A stretch of 64,000 nt of DNA from Saprospirales bacterium. Its GTDB lineage: Bacteria; Bacteroidota; Bacteroidia; Chitinophagales; UBA8649. Every line of letters starts with the position of its first letter. The first letter of the stretch is position 1. The position numbers and the translations under genes are program-made. The notes beneath the pieces are model-generated. The model had not been told where the DNA came from, ran no database searches, and saw nothing but the letters and a program-made list of their open reading frames with translations. The stretch is from positions 43,683 to 107,682 of the forward strand of contig PAPS01000009.1 in assembly GCA_002708985.1 (NCBI GenBank), given 5' to 3'. Of the stretch, positions 54,770 to 64,000 are shown one piece after another.

Positions 54770-54798
54770 TTTGATTACGTGTTTATTAAGTAAATTTA
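54770..54798 (+). promoter_or_regulatory. Promoter candidate for the act operon
   Basis: TTTG (54770-54773), 17-bp spacer, TAAATTTA (54791-54798), 20 bp before the ATG at 54819. The track's TTG start at 54771 falls inside this -33 element, so the ATG is preferred as actA start. Confidence 0.4.
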
Positions 54799-54818
54799 TC
54801 GCGTATAGTGACATTACT

Positions 54819-56399
54819 ATGACAAACCGAATCCAATTCAAAATTTTTGAGGCGAGTTGTACGTCAAAGCCAAGAAAATTTTTGCTTTTATCATGCCTAC
54901 TGGTTTGCATCGGTTTTGTGCGTAGTGCAATAGCCCAAGACGAAGAGCTAGACCCTCAGGATTTATCTTCGAATGAAGTAGTGTCAGAGACCAATGAAGC
55001 TACAGAGGGCGGTATAAGCGATGCTGATTCAATCCCTTTAGACGGTGGCGGAACTGCTGAAAATGCCGATGAAGCACCTAGTGGCGAAGAAGCCCTGTGG
55101 AACCAGGGTAAGGTATTATTTCAAGGTAAGTGTGCCTCTTGCCACCATCCTATTCGGGATGGTACAGGGCCAGCTTTATCAGGAGTCCGTCAACGTTGGA
55201 TAGATGATGGTGACTTCCAAGATAAATCAGGAGAAGAGTGGCTATACGAGTGGATTAGAAATAATAAAAGTGTTTTAGACGCAGGTCATCCCTATGCTAA
55301 TAATCTCTACAAGGAGTGGGGTGAAGCAAACATGAATTTGTTTGCTGGTCTTAAAGACGATGAAATCGATGCACTTCTCTACTACGTGGACAATTCTGCC
55401 CAGTTTGAACCTGTTGCAGCGGCCACGGATGTTTCCGCAGCAGATGACGGTGAAACAGGAGGTGGTATTGGACAAGAATTTTTAAGTAAATACCTAATTT
55501 TTATAGGGATAGGCCTTCTGCTTCTCGTCTTAATTCTAGCGAGAATTCAGTCCGTTCTTAAGCGCATTGAGCTGCAGAAACTTGGTCAGCCAATACCTCC
55601 TTATGTTCCGATATGGAAGAGCAAGCGTATCTACGCAGTGCTTGTCCCTCTTCTGCTTTTTGTGGGGGCTAAAGCATTGATGGAGTCAGCTATTGGTGTT
55701 GGACGTCAGCAAGCATATCAACCTGATCAACCCATCGCCTATTCTCATGCTTTACACGCAGGCCAGCTCAACATTGAGTGCCAATATTGCCACAGTGGGG
55801 CCAGCAAATCAAAGCATTCCAATATCCCATCAGCGGATGTTTGTATGAATTGTCACATGCAAGTCAATGCCAACTCGGAAGATAGAGGTCGTTCAGAGAT
55901 TGCCAAAATCTATGCTTCGGTGGGTTGGAATCCAAATTCTACTGGAGGCGGATCCTACATAGCGTATCCTGAATCTTTAGAAGCTGATGACTTAGATTCT
56001 ATGTATCGCACATATTTATCCCAAGACTACAGTGAGGAGGAACTTATGGATGATGCCATACAGAAGATTTTGACTGAAGATGTTAATGCCGTCACTGCCA
56101 TGTATAACTCACCAATTCCATGGGTGCGCTTACACAATCTTCCTGACCACGTTTATTTTAATCACGCCCAGCATGTTAGTGCAGGAAATGTGGAGTGTCA
56201 AAGCTGTCATGGACCAATTCAAGAAATGGAAGTCGTATATCAATGGTCACCTTTATCGATGGGATGGTGTATAAATTGTCATAGAAACTCTGAGGTTGAT
56301 CAAACTAACCCTTATTACGAACAGCACTATCATAATTTGGCCGATGATGCTACCGTTGAGGATATTGGAGGTACTGAGTGTCAAAAATGTCATTATTAA
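54819..56399 (+). CDS. actA: Alternative complex III multiheme cytochrome c subunit ActA, with fused N-terminal monoheme domain
   Basis: 526 residues from the ATG at 54819. A signal peptide ends near 'FVRSAIAQ'. An N-terminal cytochrome c domain has CASCH (about residue 107); a membrane helix ('YLIFIGIGLLLLVLILARI') and a second one ('YAVLVPLLLFVGAKALM') follow. The C-terminal part has five further CxxCH sites: CQYCH, CMNCH, CQSCH, CINCH and CQKCH, giving six haems in total. ActA passes electrons from the ActB/ActC core to the monohaem subunit. It leads the operon actABCDEF. Confidence 0.93.
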   Translation: MTNRIQFKIFEASCTSKPRKFLLLSCLLVCIGFVRSAIAQDEELDPQDLSSNEVVSETNEATEGGISDADSIPLDGGGTAENADEAPSGEEALWNQGKVLFQGKCASCHHPIRDGTGPALSGVRQRWIDDGDFQDKSGEEWLYEWIRNNKSVLDAGHPYANNLYKEWGEANMNLFAGLKDDEIDALLYYVDNSAQFEPVAAATDVSAADDGETGGGIGQEFLSKYLIFIGIGLLLLVLILARIQSVLKRIELQKLGQPIPPYVPIWKSKRIYAVLVPLLLFVGAKALMESAIGVGRQQAYQPDQPIAYSHALHAGQLNIECQYCHSGASKSKHSNIPSADVCMNCHMQVNANSEDRGRSEIAKIYASVGWNPNSTGGGSYIAYPESLEADDLDSMYRTYLSQDYSEEELMDDAIQKILTEDVNAVTAMYNSPIPWVRLHNLPDHVYFNHAQHVSAGNVECQSCHGPIQEMEVVYQWSPLSMGWCINCHRNSEVDQTNPYYEQHYHNLADDATVEDIGGTECQKCHY

Positions 56400-56411
56400 G
56401 AATTTTAGATT

Positions 56412-59400
56412 ATGAGTGAGCTAGAATCTAATAAGAACAAAAAGTACTGGGGAAGTATCCACGAACTGCGTGATTCCACCTACACTGAAAAGTATGAGGA
56501 TGGTGATTTGGAGTACCTAAAAGATGTTAGGGAGGTCATTTCAAAGGAGAAAACAGGTCGAAGAGACTTTTTGAAAATGTTAGGGTTTAGCGTTGGTGCA
56601 GCAACTGTTGCCGCGGCATGTAAACGTCCTATTCGCAAATCTATTCCTTATCAAACGACGCAAGATGGGCTAATACCAGGAATCCCTAACTATTATGCCT
56701 CTTCCTACATTGCCAATGGCGACTTTAATAGTGTTAAAGTAAAATGTCGTGAAGGTCGGCCTATCCTAATAGAGGGATTATCATCGGGATATTCTAGAGG
56801 TGATGTTCACTTGAGAGCACTCGGAAGTTTGATTAACTTATACGACCACGCCCGTATTAAAAGTCCTAAAATTGGTGGCAAAGATGTTTCATGGGAGAAG
56901 CTTGATACATCGGTAATTGCCAACCTTAAAAAGGCAGATTCAGAGGGCAAAGAAGTTGTGCTGCTAACAGGCACTGAGATAAGTCCATCAGTTATCAAGG
57001 CTTATAAAGTTCTACAAGAGGCTTATCCTAACATTCAGAATATCCAATATGACCCGATTTCTTACTCTGGGATACTCGATGCGCATAAAGAATTGTTTGG
57101 AAATCGCGCAATTCGAGAGATTTATTTTGATAAAGCGGACTTAATCGTATCAGTAGGAGCAGACTTTCTGGGTTCTTGGATAAGTCCTACTAGATTTTCT
57201 ACTGAATATGTTTCAAGAAGAAAGGTATCCAAAGAGGATACGAATATGAATCGTCATATTCAGATTGAATCTGTTCCTAGTCTAGCTGGATCGAATGCGG
57301 ATTTACGAATCCCTGTCATGCCTTCTGAAGAGCATCTTGCATTGGTTCAAATTTACAATTACATAGCTGAGAAATTGGGTAAAGAGACCACAAGTGTCTC
57401 ATTCAATGATAGCCGTATTGCTTCAGTAGCTGAGGAACTTTTCGCATGCCAGGGAAATTCAGTTCTTGTTTCTGGTTCTAATGATAAGGATGCTCAAATC
57501 TTAGTTATACTAATTAATACGATGCTTGGTAATTATGGAAATACAATTTCCAATTCCGTAACGTATAACCTAAAAAAAGGAGATGACAGCGCTGTACATG
57601 ATATGCTAATCCGAATGGAAAAAGGTGAGATTTCCGGCATCATCATGGATGATTCTAACCCATTTTATAATCTAGGGAATAGCTTCGAAAAGGCCTTCTT
57701 AAAGTTAGATTTTAGCGTCTCTTTATCCAGTCGATTTAATGAGACTTCACGAAGGTGCACCTATGTTGCCCCTGATAACCACTGGTTAGAGTCTTGGGGT
57801 GATGCAATGCCGACCACAAATTATCTCGCTTCGTGCCAACCATGTATAGCTCCTTTATTTGATACTAGACAGCGCCTAGAGTCTGTACTCAGATGGAGTG
57901 GGATGTCCATGAAAGCTTATGATTTTATTCGTAAAGTGTGGTTCAGTGATTATTTTCAGCAGCAGTCCATATATCCTACCACCGGTTCGTTTTGGGATAG
58001 TATCATTCATGACGGTGGTCTCGAATTGCAGAGTGTTGACGTTGAAAGCCACACAGTAAAAAATAGTCATATAAATTCTGCTAAGCGATTAGCTGAAACT
58101 AATACTTCTAAAATGGAAGTAAGGTTTTATGAAAAGCCTCAAATTGGAGATGGACATTATTGTGACAACCCTTGGATGCAAGAATTAGCTGATCCAATAA
58201 CAAGAATTAGTTGGGATAATTACATTGTCGCCAACCCAAAGTGGGTCGAAGAAAACAACCTTCTAGATAATTTTAAGGCACGTACCTATCAAAAGGTTAT
58301 GCTAAAAACCAATGATGGAGTGGTTACTTTGCCAATCGTGGCGCTGCCAGGGACTCCTTACGGCTCTTTTGGTGTGTGCTTTGGTTATGGAAGAAAGCAT
58401 ACGCTGCACTCAGACTATGAGAGGGGATCTTCTATTTATCATCTTACAAATAGAGTGGGTAATTCCATGAAATTTACAGATGAAGTCAATGAGATTAAGT
58501 GGGTTGAAGATGGATATAAGGTTGCCATAATACAGCAACACCATGGTTTAACGCACAAAACACTTGGATCAGATGATGAAAGTATGTTTGTTACTGAACA
58601 AACAAGACAAGTAGTTAAGGAAACGACGTTGGCAGAATATAAAGAAGACCCGTGGAGTGGAAACACCATTGCCGGCCAGCGTAGAGATAAGTGGCTTAAG
58701 CACCATTTGACGTCTCTTTATGGTGAAACAGCCTGGGACGATGATAAACCTTTCGAATACTATTATGGAGGAGCGCATGCAAAGAAACAAGGCGATGGAC
58801 ATCATTGGGGTCTTGCAATTGATCTAAATGCTTGTACTGGTTGTGGGGCATGTGTAGTTGCCTGTCATGCTGAGAACAATGTCCCAGTTGTTGGGCAAGA
58901 GGAGGTCCACAGAGGGCACGAGATGAACTGGGTTCGCATAGATAAATATCATACAGGCGACGAAGATAATCCCGATGTAGTTTTTCAGCTTATGATGTGC
59001 CAGCACTGCGATAACGCTCCTTGTGAAAACGTTTGTCCTGTAGCTGCTACGAACCATAGCAGTGAAGGCCTTAATCAGATGACGTATAACCGCTGTATCG
59101 GAACAAGATACTGTGCTAATAACTGCCCTTACAAAGTGCGTCGTTTCAATTGGTTTGATTACCAAGGGGCAGATAGTTTCAGTGATCGAGAGGGATTTTG
59201 GGGCCTCGATAATGATTTTGATGGCGCTCGGAGTCATGAAGGGGGACAACTCGGAATGCATGATCCTTTACGTCGAATGGTGCTCAATCCAGATGTAACT
59301 GTACGATCAAGAGGGGTTATCGAGAAATGTTCTCTCTGTGTGCAAAGAATTCAGTTAGCTAAGTTAGAAGCCAAAATTGAAAAGAGAGGTTTAGATGATG

Positions 59401-59591
59401 AAACCATTAGAACTGCTTGTCAAACGGCTTGTGGTGCTGATGCAATTGTTTTTGGAGACACAAATAATCAACAATCTGAGGTATTTAAAAAGTGGAGTGA
59501 TGAGCGTGCTTTCGGTGTAATCGAGGAAATACACACCCTTCCTTCTGTGCAATATCTTACAAAGGTTAGAAACAAAACTAAAAAGTCCTAA
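56412..59591 (+). CDS. actB: Alternative complex III iron-sulfur subunit ActB (TAT-type, molybdopterin oxidoreductase-like)
   Basis: 1059 residues. A TAT-like signal with lipobox ('[20 protein letters not shown]' then Cys) is preceded by an unusual 50-residue extension. The long first part (about 90-770) has the molybdopterin oxidoreductase fold without a cofactor. The C-terminal ferredoxin-like part holds four cluster motifs: '[11 protein letters not shown]', '[13 protein letters not shown]', '[11 protein letters not shown]' and 'CSLCVQR' with 'CQTAC'. In known structures these hold three [4Fe-4S] and one [3Fe-4S]. It transfers electrons from quinol to ActA on the periplasmic side. Confidence 0.95.
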
Positions 59592-59593
59592 AC

Positions 59594-61117
59594 ATGAGTA
59601 ATTACGAATCACCCATAAGGGAACCGCTCATAACCGGAGATAAGTCTTATTCCCAAATTACCACAGATATTGTGGGTACGACGGAGAAAAGCCCTCCTAT
59701 GTCATGGTTTATTGCTTTCGGTATTGCCGGGGCTTGCGCCACTTTTGGTATTGTTGGTATTCTGTACCTCCTGTGGCAAGGTGTTGGCGTTTGGGGTCTT
59801 AATAGAACGGTTAACTGGGCCTGGGATATTACTAATTTTGTGTGGTGGGTAGGAATTGGTCATGCCGGGACATTAATTTCTGCTGTTCTTCTGTTGTTCC
59901 GTCAAAAGTGGCGCACGGGAATTAACCGAGCTGCGGAAGCAATGACAATCTTCGCGGTAGTATGTGCAGGTCTTTTTCCGGGAATTCATATGGGTCGAAT
60001 ATGGTTAGCATTCTTCATTTTCCCGTATCCTAATACAAGAGGTCCTCTATGGGTCAACTTTAACTCTCCTTTACTTTGGGACGTTTTTGCCATTTCGACC
60101 TATCTGACTGTATCCCTGCTGTTTTGGTATTCGGGGCTTATGCCAGATTTTGCAACGATTCGAGATCGTTCCAAAGGCAAACTTCGAAAATATATCTATA
60201 ATGTATTGAGTTTTGGGTGGACAGGAACTGCCAAGCAATGGCAGCGTTTTGAGTCTTTATCATTGATTTTAGCGGGATTAGCTACTCCTCTTGTTCTTTC
60301 GGTCCACACTATCGTATCATTTGATTTTGCTACGTCAGTTATTCCTGGATGGCACACTACGATATTCCCGCCATATTTTGTGGCAGGAGCGATTTTTTCT
60401 GGTTTTGCCATGGTATTGACGCTTATGATAATAACTAGAAAAGTATTGAAGCTTGAGGATTATATTACTATTGCTCACATCGAATCGATGAACAAGGTCA
60501 TTGTTCTCACGGGATCAATTGTAGGTATAGCGTACATCACAGAGCTTTTTACCGCATGGTACTCTGGATATCTATATGAGCAGTTCGCCTTCTACAATAG
60601 AGCGTTTGGACCTTATATGTGGGCCTACTTTATTATGATGGGATGTAACGTTATTTCTCCTCAAATTTTTTGGTTTAAGTTCGCACGGCGAAGCGTTGTG
60701 ATTTCTTTTGTGATGTCCATCTTTGTGAATATTGGAATGTGGTTTGAGCGTTTTGTTATCATTGTAACTTCTTTACACCGAGACTTTCTTCCTTCAAGTT
60801 GGATTTATTTCAAACCAACAATATGGGATGTTGCGATATATGTAGGGACAATTGGGATTTTCTTCACGCTATTCTTACTCTTTGCACGAACATTTCCTGT
60901 AATCGCAATTGCTGAGGTAAAATCAATTTTTTCCTCCTCCTCGGCAGCGGCTAAAAAGCGACAGGTGTCTCAAGATAACGAGAATGCAGAGCGTTTTAAA
61001 GGAGCTCCAGGCATTCCATATGCGCATGCGGAGTATTCAGATCAAGTAAGCGGTAAATCAAAAATTTCTTTTAATGCGGAAGACTTGCTATTGACAAAAG
61101 AAAAAGTTAAAAATTAA
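59594..61117 (+). CDS. actC: Alternative complex III quinol-binding membrane subunit ActC (NrfD/PsrC-like)
   Basis: 507 residues with about ten membrane helices. '[20 protein letters not shown]' and '[19 protein letters not shown]' are typical NrfD/PsrC blocks with the conserved His and Asp/Glu environment of the quinol site. It starts 2 bp after actB. It oxidises menaquinol and may contribute to proton translocation. Confidence 0.95.
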
Positions 61118-61119
61118 CT

Positions 61120-61704
61120 ATGGCTAGCGAAAGATTTATGATCGGCTTATTTAGCCACGAGGATAATCTGCTCGAAGCAGTTCGTGCTTTACGTGAAAAG
61201 AAGTTGGAGATAACAGATGCGCTCACTCCCTTTCCAGTTCACGGTCTAGAACACGAATTGGGATATAAGGATAGTCGATTACATACGGCAGGATTTATAT
61301 TCGGCTTAACTGGATTATTATTTGCATTGACTTTTATGACGTGGATTAACACCAAAAACTATCCAATTAATTACGGTGGAAAGCCACAATTTGCATTGCC
61401 CTCTTTTATACCAGTGACTTTTGAACTTACCATTCTCTTTGCAGCAGTCGGCATGGTAATTGTGTATTGCGTTCGAAATGGATTAGCCCTAGGTCGCGTA
61501 CCAAGAATATATGATGATCGCATAACAGACGATCGGTTTGCATTGGTTTTTGCAATTGACGAAAAGAGAACAGCAGATCAATTAAATGCCATTCGAGATA
61601 TACTAGTTGAGCATGGTGTTGCCGAGATTAAGGCTAAAGAGTTTAGCGATGACGATGAAGTATTTGAATCTTCAACGATTCGATTAAATGAAGAAAGTAA
61701 GTAA
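61120..61704 (+). CDS. actD: Alternative complex III subunit ActD (DUF3341)
   Basis: 194 residues. A cytoplasmic N-terminal part ('FMIGLFSHEDNLLEAVRALR') precedes two membrane helices ('TAGFIFGLTGLLFALTFM' and 'TFELTILFAAVGMVIVYCV'). The DUF3341 layout and its position between actC and actE identify it. It starts 2 bp after actC. Confidence 0.93.
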   Translation: MASERFMIGLFSHEDNLLEAVRALREKKLEITDALTPFPVHGLEHELGYKDSRLHTAGFIFGLTGLLFALTFMTWINTKNYPINYGGKPQFALPSFIPVTFELTILFAAVGMVIVYCVRNGLALGRVPRIYDDRITDDRFALVFAIDEKRTADQLNAIRDILVEHGVAEIKAKEFSDDDEVFESSTIRLNEESK

Positions 61705-61705
61705 A

Positions 61706-62590
61706 ATGAAGTTTCAGAAGGACATACTTTTTTTCTCCATAATAGTGGCTATCGCAGTTACTGCCTGCAAGCCTGAGGGTAATAGTCCTGGCTATGTATA
61801 CATGCCGGATATGGACTATTCTACAGCTTATGAAACCTTTTCTTCTTTGAAAAACGATAAGACAGACTTTACAGATACTATCAGTGCTCGTCCAATTCTT
61901 CCTGGGACTATCCCATACGGAAGCCTAGATCAAAATGTAGAAGGTCGATCAAATGAATTCATTCGTCGATCAAGTGTTTACACCCATTATTATGACGATC
62001 CTTATGCCTCCAATGGACAATATGCTGCCATTGAGGGAGCAAATCGAGAAAATTCTAGGGATTTAATCAATCCACTGCCTTATTCAGACGAGGCACTTGA
62101 ACTTGGCGAGAAAATATATGAAGTCAACTGTTTGATGTGCCATGGTGAAAAAGGAGAGGGAAATGGATGGATATACAATCCAGATGGACCCTACAGTGCC
62201 ATGCCAGCGAACTACTACACTGTTTTTTACGAAATGGAAAGTGAGGGTGTTTCTCTGGGTAATCATATTACAGATGGCATTGCTTTTCATTCAATTACCT
62301 ATGGAAAAGGTAAAATGGGAGCACATAATTGGTTAACACCAGAAGAACGGTGGGCAGTCATTCACTATATACGCGATCTCGGTGAAGCACTAATTCCTGC
62401 TGATGCTGCGTTTTATGAAAAAACACGAACCCAATTAGCAGAAGAAATGGAGGCTATGGGCCACCAGACTCACGATGCTGAGATGAGTGAAAGCCATGAA
62501 GAGGGTGGTCATGAATCTTCGGAGCATAAAGATCACCGCGATAATGAGGAGGCAAACCCTGCGGAAGAACACGACCACGCAATGAACTGA
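61706..62590 (+). CDS. actE: Alternative complex III monohaem cytochrome c lipoprotein ActE with His-rich tail
   Basis: 294 residues from the ATG at 61706, 1 bp after the actD stop; the track start (61688) is inside actD. The lipoprotein signal ends in 'VTAC'. One haem motif, 'CLMCHGEKGEGNG', lies near residue 146, and a distal Met ligand is likely in 'KGKMGAHNW'. The last ~45 residues are rich in His, Glu and Asp ('HEEGGHESSEHKDHRDNEE'). ActE is the exit cytochrome that hands electrons to the terminal oxidase or a soluble carrier. Confidence 0.93.
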   Translation: MKFQKDILFFSIIVAIAVTACKPEGNSPGYVYMPDMDYSTAYETFSSLKNDKTDFTDTISARPILPGTIPYGSLDQNVEGRSNEFIRRSSVYTHYYDDPYASNGQYAAIEGANRENSRDLINPLPYSDEALELGEKIYEVNCLMCHGEKGEGNGWIYNPDGPYSAMPANYYTVFYEMESEGVSLGNHITDGIAFHSITYGKGKMGAHNWLTPEERWAVIHYIRDLGEALIPADAAFYEKTRTQLAEEMEAMGHQTHDAEMSESHEEGGHESSEHKDHRDNEEANPAEEHDHAMN

Positions 62591-62601
62591 GAGGAATAAC
62601 T

Positions 62602-64000
62602 ATGGAAAGTCACGAATCAAAAATCTTTAATTATTCCAAGCAGGCGAAGAAAATCGCTTTTATATGTATGGGACTTGGAGTATTGGGTATCGTACTCTCA
62701 ATTGTGCTACCCGATATGTCGGCTAATCATTACAGTCGATTTTGGTCAAACCTCTTACTAAATACCTATTATTTCGCAGGTATCGCTATTACAGGGTTAT
62801 TTTTCTTGTCAGCTCACCAGTTAGGTTATGGAGGGTGGCATGTTTTATTTAAACGTGTTCCGTTGGCTATGAGTCGTTACCTATACATAATATTTGGCTT
62901 AGTTGCTCTCATCACTGCAGGGCTGCTTATGGATTGGCATTCGTTATATGGTCATTGGGCTCACCCCCATGAGGTAGCATATGCTGATAGTGGAATAGCA
63001 GAGGCTGACCGAATTGTAGTGAGCAAGAGTCCCTTCCTGAACAAGACTATGTTTGCGGTAATTGTGCCCGGATTTTTCTTGATGTGGGCTTTATTCTCCA
63101 CGGCATTTACGAAACGAATGACTTTTATTAAGTCATTTAAAGAGTACAATCAATCTAAGTACTTGTCCGCTTTATTTATTCTTGTTTTTGCCGTTTCAAT
63201 GTCTGTGTTATCGTGGATGTTTATTATGAGTCTTGACCCTCACTGGTATTCTACTTTGTTTGGTTGGTATAATTTCGCAAGCTATACAGTAGCGGGGTTT
63301 GCTTTTATGATTTTGATTTTACTCTATCTTAAGAGTAAAGGAAGCTATCCACACCTTGATGAAAACCACCTACATGACTTAGGTAAATATCTTTTCGGTT
63401 TTTCGGTGTTCTACACCTACCTCTGGTTTTCTCAATACCTATTGATTTGGTATGCAAATATTCCTGAAGCAACGATCTGGTATACAAAACGCATGGAAGA
63501 ACCTCTTTTCAAGTTTCTCTTTTTCTTCACCCTATTAATCAATTTTCCACTGCCCTTGTTGGTTTTGATGCGCAGAGGTGCTAAACGAAAACTAAAAGTT
63601 CTAGGCTTCGTTGCTGTAATGATGATATTTGGTCACTATTTGGACTTTTATGGAATGGTAATGTTCGAACCTAATGCGGTAGTAGAGCACCATGGTGATC
63701 ATCATGAAGAAGGACATGATAATCATCATGGGGAGCATGTAGGTGATGTAAGTCATGATGGCCATCTTGTGCAAGCAAGCGGAGATAATCATGATGCTGC
63801 AGATACCTACCTGTTAGCAGATGCAGGGGATCATCATGATGACCATGCTCATGGTGATGACCATCATGACGAAGCGAGTCACAAAGAAGACCATGCTCAT
63901 GGTGATGACCATCATGACGAAGCGAGTCACAAAGAAGATCATGCTCATGGTGATGACCATCATGACGAAGCGAGTCACAAAGAAGATCATGCTCATGGTG
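62602..64000 (+). CDS. actF: Alternative complex III membrane subunit ActF, 3' partial, with His/Asp-rich insertion
   Basis: The ORF starts at ATG 62602, 11 bp after actE, and stays open to the window end (466 codons), so it is missing from the track. About nine membrane helices are visible up to 'FVAVMMIFGHYLDFYGMVMF' (residues about 335-355), the block which in other ActF proteins precedes a last helix. Here it is followed by more than 100 residues rich in His, Asp and Glu, including at least 3.3 copies of a 16-residue unit 'DHAHGDDHHDEASHKE'. The helices are homologous to ActC (NrfD/PsrC type), and the core role is quinol-complex structure and possibly proton transfer. Whether the last helix and stop follow normally is not visible. 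Confidence 0.92.
   Translation, partial: MESHESKIFNYSKQAKKIAFICMGLGVLGIVLSIVLPDMSANHYSRFWSNLLLNTYYFAGIAITGLFFLSAHQLGYGGWHVLFKRVPLAMSRYLYIIFGLVALITAGLLMDWHSLYGHWAHPHEVAYADSGIAEADRIVVSKSPFLNKTMFAVIVPGFFLMWALFSTAFTKRMTFIKSFKEYNQSKYLSALFILVFAVSMSVLSWMFIMSLDPHWYSTLFGWYNFASYTVAGFAFMILILLYLKSKGSYPHLDENHLHDLGKYLFGFSVFYTYLWFSQYLLIWYANIPEATIWYTKRMEEPLFKFLFFFTLLINFPLPLLVLMRRGAKRKLKVLGFVAVMMIFGHYLDFYGMVMFEPNAVVEHHGDHHEEGHDNHHGEHVGDVSHDGHLVQASGDNHDAADTYLLADAGDHHDDHAHGDDHHDEASHKEDHAHGDDHHDEASHKEDHAHGDDHHDEASHKEDHAHG
63841..64000 (+). repeat. 48-bp in-frame tandem repeats in actF
   Basis: Units at 63841-63888, 63889-63936 and 63937-63984, with a fourth beginning at 63985 and cut by the window end. The units are identical except for a silent GAC/GAT difference in the first codon. 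Each encodes DHAHGDDHHDEASHKE. Near-perfect identity points to recent expansion or active homogenisation. Confidence 0.95.

Follow-up and report, generated by a model that had tools for sequence, protein, structure and literature searches.

The act operon and the interrupted actF gene

The 64,000-nucleotide stretch of DNA analysed here (the window; C9:43683-107682, from contig PAPS01000009.1 of the 46-contig Saprospirales bacterium assembly G000) ends inside actF. This gene closes an actABCDEF operon (54771-64000; Pfam, NCBIfam) for alternative complex III (ACIII), which is followed by a haem-copper oxidase operon. The ActF encoded here has a long His/Asp-rich loop between its ninth and tenth transmembrane helices (TM9 and TM10), and part of this loop consists of the 48-bp tandem repeats highlighted in a preliminary description of the window. 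The loop is an old, clade-wide feature in which net acidity and a short hydrophobic motif persist, and the repeats are a late addition to it. The features concerned are the following.

54771-56399, plus strand: actA, multihaem cytochrome c (Pfam)
56412-59591, plus strand: actB, molybdopterin-like and Fe-S domains (Pfam/NCBIfam)
59594-61117, plus strand: actC, NrfD-like, the ActF homologue used as insert-free control
61120-61704, plus strand: actD (Pfam ActD)
61688-62590, plus strand: actE, monohaem cytochrome c; its C-terminal tail (about 62459-62587) is rich in His
62602-64000, plus strand: actF, 5' part; the gene is completed on contig C14 by its 3' part (L005, minus strand from 11074)
63634-63645, plus strand: H345 and D348 (in GHYLD), close to where TM9 ends on the periplasmic side (alignment with R. 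marinus ActF)
63673-64000, plus strand: window portion of the periplasmic TM9-TM10 loop, of low complexity, rich in His, Asp, Glu and Gly (about 27-28% His)
63802-63825, plus strand: DTYLLADA, window copy of the VLYA[E/Q]-like motif (leave-one-family-out profile, p=0.0035)
63841-64000, plus strand: 48-bp tandem array, 3.3 copies of DHAHGDDHHDEASHKE, resuming on C14 as K-G variant units

Tandem Repeats Finder (TRF) identified the array at 63841-64000 as the only strong one within the window (period 48, 3.3 copies, 99% matches, score 304-306). Together with the open reading frame (ORF), in which the array lies in frame, this bears out the description of more than 100 residues dominated by His, Asp, Glu and Gly and ending in 3.3 near-perfect repeats. 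The first two units are identical and the third differs by one synonymous base change; a 35-base probe of the unit gave three matches, against none in 100 shuffles. No DNA-level structure was supported for the array (z=0.55), and a phage origin was rejected because no blastn match was obtained.

The ORF at 62602-64000 comprises 466 codons and is open at its 3' end. Contig C9 is 107,682 bp long, so that window and contig end at the same base and assembly stopped inside the array. When the whole assembly was searched, the array was found at one other site only, the extreme end of C14. The reverse complement of C14 opens 26 bases ahead of a unit boundary in the same repeat and contributes one more full unit (last codon GGA for GAA, the variant units ending AAAGGA) and then one degenerate unit. 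Past the degenerate unit it reads HATTYAGLGLVELFIFLGFLGSFLFVTFRALDRQDLENVEDPFLKESKHHHI followed by a stop codon, the frame after the repeats (...HDEEHATTYAGLGLVELFIFLGFLGSFLFVTFRALDRQDLENVEDPFLKESKHHHI*) completing the last transmembrane helix. A profile built from 36 ActF proteins matched with its positions 3-363 on C9 and with its positions 349-410 on C14 (E 8.5e-18), and on C14 actF is followed by coxB-coxA, as in both congeners (G001 and G002). Given the shared repeat, the complementary profile matches and the congener gene order, C9 and C14 each hold one half of a single gene. Joining them takes a minimum of six bases of the unit and keeps the frame, giving five full units plus one degenerate unit in a loop of at least 150 residues, of which 42 are His, 33 Asp and 13 Glu; unit count and loop length are lower bounds, the copy number being uncertain. 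Extension of the contig, which had been proposed as a check, thus leads to a final helix and a stop codon, and a frameshift or a stop leaving a nonfunctional tail without homologue was rejected, since C14 supplies both.

As C9 ends within the array and C14 begins within it, a misassembly of the array or of the entire loop was considered. This is highly improbable, however, because both contigs independently hold the array in frame and both congeners carry a whole actF, on contigs of 125 and 20 kb, in which a His-rich loop runs unbroken at the equivalent position and the array is absent. An artefact is thereby refuted for the loop, and the uncertainty is confined to copy number, which, the repeat being in frame, could change as had been suggested. 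In the genome G003, a member of the family, contigs C220 and C192 (L016 and L017) contain two different actF fragments, one of which, like that of the window, stops at a contig edge inside the loop.

Topology of ActF and distribution of its inserts

ActF gave no Pfam or NCBIfam family above threshold, and its identification, as already proposed, was established by phmmer matches to the ActF chains of four solved complexes (6BTM F, 6F0K F, 8K9E F and 6LOD F), with E-values from 6.8e-50 (6btm_F) through 8.5e-37 (6f0k_F) to 1.2e-23. Residues 1-354 constitute the membrane core, low complexity starts at residue 358 and histidines at 363. The window gene had to be pieced together from two contigs; the structural comparison used the complete ActF of a congener, whose AlphaFold2 model contains ten long helices, in agreement with NrfD-like four-helix bundles, and has 6btm_F as top Foldseek match (TM-score 0.89 by target). 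In the ACIII of R. marinus, ActC and ActF each have ten helices with both termini cytoplasmic (PMC5928083). With ten helices and cytoplasmic termini, the insert, which does follow the penultimate helix as first described, is a periplasmic loop. In the alignment with R. marinus ActF, H345 and D348 correspond to His355 and Asp358, which are listed among the residues of a proposed periplasmic proton half-channel in ActF (PMC5928083), and the loop begins about ten residues past them. In the congener model, loop residues 363-462 have predicted local distance difference test (pLDDT) values of about 35-41 between a confident TM9 and a confident TM10 (472-493), and a monomer model of an ActF protein from family f10 likewise shows a low-confidence loop. 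Based on these models the TM9-TM10 loop is probably disordered.

The solved ActF subunits share with the window protein the fold, the ten helices, the operon and the equivalents of H345 and D348. They differ in having a TM9-TM10 loop of about 8-20 residues, in agreement with the short loop first expected, compared with at least 150 here, a variant that does not define the subunit. In F. johnsoniae (6BTM F) a His-rich stretch is instead located between TM1 and TM2 (residues 41-83); the modelled chain comprises 402 of 464 residues, and the missing residues would fit an insert not resolved in the structure.

ActF matches were found in 288 of 299 genomes of the order and in 108 of 119 genomes of the class, and 119 distinct ActF proteins were collected. 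These were picked partly for long frames, so that fractions are not population frequencies; membrane side was not a criterion. Inter-helix inserts of at least 45 residues were observed in TM1-TM2 (six), TM3-TM4 (two) and TM9-TM10 (41), all periplasmic, and none was found in the cytoplasmic loops of the 119 proteins. His-enriched inserts have recurred independently, by convergence, in three periplasmic loops of ActF. The homologous ActC served as comparison and showed no inserts: in 36 of 40 class genomes it was collinear, with frames of 436-511 codons, including genomes whose ActF bears an insert. In the phylum sample outside the class, ActF frames were mostly short (390-435 residues, with one of 462). 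A general His-richness of the genome's proteins was rejected, since among ORFs of at least 150 residues in the window and L005 only ActF and CoxA contain 20-residue segments with six or more His. The loop makes this ActF a variant of a known subunit and is commoner than first assumed, not peculiar to this protein. No published account of His-rich inserts in ActF was found in the open-access papers searched, although the insert of the F. johnsoniae protein may be mentioned in the paper on that structure.

Conserved features and history of the loop

All 30 sampled members of the clade formed by families f1, f4, f8, f10 and f20 have the long TM9-TM10 loop. In a maximum-likelihood tree of the core columns only, a quick one without a mixture model, these 30 proteins form one group (SH-like approximate likelihood-ratio test 96) with one change, and the f18/f12 loops and the TM1-TM2 and TM3-TM4 inserts fall elsewhere; the tree has 13 insert changes in total, at least seven of them forced by its starred branches. 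The clade's loop arose once, before the five families split, and was kept in every member sampled. The 48-bp array is a recent local expansion within this old loop, because the congeners are without it and no other actF gene exceeds a TRF score of 80, compared with 304 for the window, the weak repeats of these genes having periods that are multiples of three. The repeats had been equated with the insertion, which does not hold: conspicuous as the repeat is, conservation lies elsewhere in the loop. Codon usage points the same way, with 26 CAT to 3 CAC for the loop histidines of the window, compared with 14/11 and 14/6 in the congener loops and 45/35 in the other act genes. This CAT bias reflects recent duplication, and the older loops reflect conserved amino acids.

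Most loops contain 11-28% His, and at least 8% was found in 24 of the 30 clade loops. The remaining six have none or a single His; four of these carry 4-8 Cys in CC pairs (ECCKKGEGEAECCKKK, VCCAGMGKGEC), and two (L048 and L093) have neither. In family f8, the loops of L041, L044, L045 and L052 have almost no His and contain CC pairs and Cys clusters (ECCKKGEGEAECCKKK; VCCAGMGKGECKEHMAACKEGEG), which is unusual for a periplasmic loop. Every one of the 41 long TM9-TM10 loops is net negative, His uncounted. In addition, the clade loops share a motif, typically [S/T]-x-V-L-Y-A-[E/Q] and usually 21-36 residues into the loop, whose strict pattern, derived from the same data, occurs in 21 of 30 loops compared with a shuffle mean of 0.05. 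When each loop was scored by a profile from the other families only, the motif was found at p<0.05 in 26 of 31 loops and in 2 of 22 control inserts; the window copy, DTYLLADA, has p=0.0035 at loop offset 46. The motif persists in loops that lost their His. Histidine is thus not obligate; the lasting features of the loop are its net acidity and the short VLYA[E/Q]-like motif.

These results bear on the metal binding (Cu, Zn, Ni or Fe) first suggested for the extension. His/Asp clusters could bind Cu, Zn or Ni, for instance copper for the CuA centre of the neighbouring oxidase, or protect against excess metal, as the His content, the independent His-enriched inserts in three loops, the possible exchange of ligands in the four Cys-bearing loops and the position of coxA, coxB and a SCO1-like gene downstream of actF would agree with. 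Zinc transporters of the ZIP and CDF/ZnT types have long, disordered His/Asp-rich loops between two transmembrane helices. Their fold is unrelated, however, ActF is without a known metal substrate, and not all ActF loops contain His. Metal ligands were not retained across the 30 homologous loops, no ordered metal-site pattern is conserved and the spacing is random. L048 and L093, with no Cys and none or one His, retain loop and motif, which argues against obligatory metal binding, while the Cys pairs in other loops keep metal binding alive. A conserved metal-binding function is thereby weakened, His having been lost at least twice while loop and hydrophobic motif stayed, and we consider a metal-binding loop rather unlikely.

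The periplasmic side of ActF may alternatively accept functionless low-complexity insertions arising by tandem duplication. Loop length and composition are very uneven and change fast between congeners, the 48-bp array is genome-specific, and Bacteroidota oxidase subunits also bear His-rich tails. Such tolerance would not readily explain a loop of single origin retained in 30 of 30 clade members, always net acidic and with a motif conserved at a roughly fixed distance from TM9, nor that among window genes of at least 150 residues His-rich segments occur only in ActF and not in the homologous ActC. Functionless insertion, although deserving some weight, is therefore an unlikely explanation.

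Possible functions of the loop

The reading that we prefer, tentatively and at somewhat less than even confidence, is that the loop is a disordered tether on the periplasmic, positive (P) side of the membrane, with a docking motif and a proton- or metal-buffering spacer grown by tandem duplication. The hydrophobic motif (VLYAE/Q; DTYLLADA in the window) would dock the loop on a partner in the periplasm, for instance a cytochrome subunit of ACIII or the neighbouring oxidase, and the docked loop would act as a flexible P-side tether. Its long His/Asp/Glu spacer may buffer protons, and perhaps loosely held metal, near the proposed half-channel in TM6-TM9. Under little sequence constraint other than to be hydrophilic and net acidic, the spacer could lengthen or shrink by in-frame tandem duplication, the 48-bp array being its newest growth. 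This reading is favoured because of the anatomy and topology of the loop, its predicted disorder, its retention, the motif, the side on which it lies, its acidity, its mode of growth and the precedent of QcrB.

In mycobacteria, an extended loop of QcrB contacts complex IV (PMC8361435), and its protonatable groups have been suggested as a proton-collecting antenna for proton uptake on the negative (N) side (PMC11189923). Like the ActF loop, the QcrB loop of the III2IV2 supercomplex is long and protonatable and belongs to a membrane subunit of a quinol-oxidising complex beside an oxidase, but it lies on the N side and contacts complex IV, whereas the ActF loop is on the P side and predicted to be disordered. 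The QcrB loop is thus an analogue and not a relative. Following the published idea for QcrB (PMC11189923), titratable His and Asp groups where the half-channel opens might speed proton release or reduce its pH sensitivity, docking being unimportant. The start of the loop about ten residues past the equivalents of His355 and Asp358 and the at least 42 His and 46 acidic groups of the minimal loop would suit such an antenna. Since the TM1-TM2 and TM3-TM4 inserts join the other side of the subunit and His-free loops exist, though acidic groups alone could serve, we regard an antenna without docking as fairly improbable. Proton buffering as such, the other role first suggested for the extension, is possible, and the position beside the proposed P-side half-channel fits it.

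Several observations weigh against the tether. No partner of the motif was identified; docking of the motif within ActF was not predicted in the two monomer models, in both of which it is unordered (pLDDT 31-41), and the motif is weak in both congeners (EVALLSVA, p=0.11; EVALLSIT, p=0.65). The N-terminus of CoxA is also His-rich and expected to be cytoplasmic, so that His-rich tails in the operon are not confined to the periplasm or to proton exits. In addition, the QcrB precedent sits on the opposite side of the membrane, the window gene is split over two contigs, and proton translocation by ActF is itself only proposed. In F. johnsoniae the contact between ACIII and the oxidase has been reported to run via oxidase subunit III, and a contact through the loop is thus not established.

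A further proposal, which we consider quite doubtful, is that the acidic and mostly His-rich ActF loops regulate the ACIII-oxidase supercomplex, the motif docking and the titratable spacer tuning proton release or metal supply by its variable length; the number of repeats would in that case be a respiratory trait open to adjustment. ActF binds no cofactor, and apart from the proposed proton path no task has been established for it. That His-rich or acidic inserts recur on one side of this subunit only, one of them with a motif kept across the depth of five families, points to a P-side role of ActF that has gone unrecognised. F. johnsoniae, in which actA and actE have been deleted and whose published structure has a comparable insert, would allow a direct test.

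Some further features of these operons were observed. The gene order actF, coxB, coxA, ctaB, coxC, coxC is common to G001, G002 and C14, and a SCO1-like gene follows the cox genes; on C14 this SCO1/SenC-like gene (L005 4433-5116, minus strand) has a CX4C spacing (DCIEKVCP) rather than the usual CX3C. The His-rich N-terminus of CoxA (HEGQVDQGHDHGHHDDHHHEE; L005 7756-9582, minus strand, C14) is conserved across the family, while the His/Glu-rich C-terminal tail of ActE (window 62459-62587) is present in this genus only, other family members being without it. In G003, ActE (L016 1244-2350, minus strand) ends in a C-terminal OmpA-family domain (Pfam 2.8e-15), which suggests that ACIII is anchored to peptidoglycan there. 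Finally, nearly all collected ActF proteins, both with and without inserts, end in a conserved cytoplasmic C-terminus of the type ES.HHH[I/V/T], as in L012 11345-12886 (minus strand).
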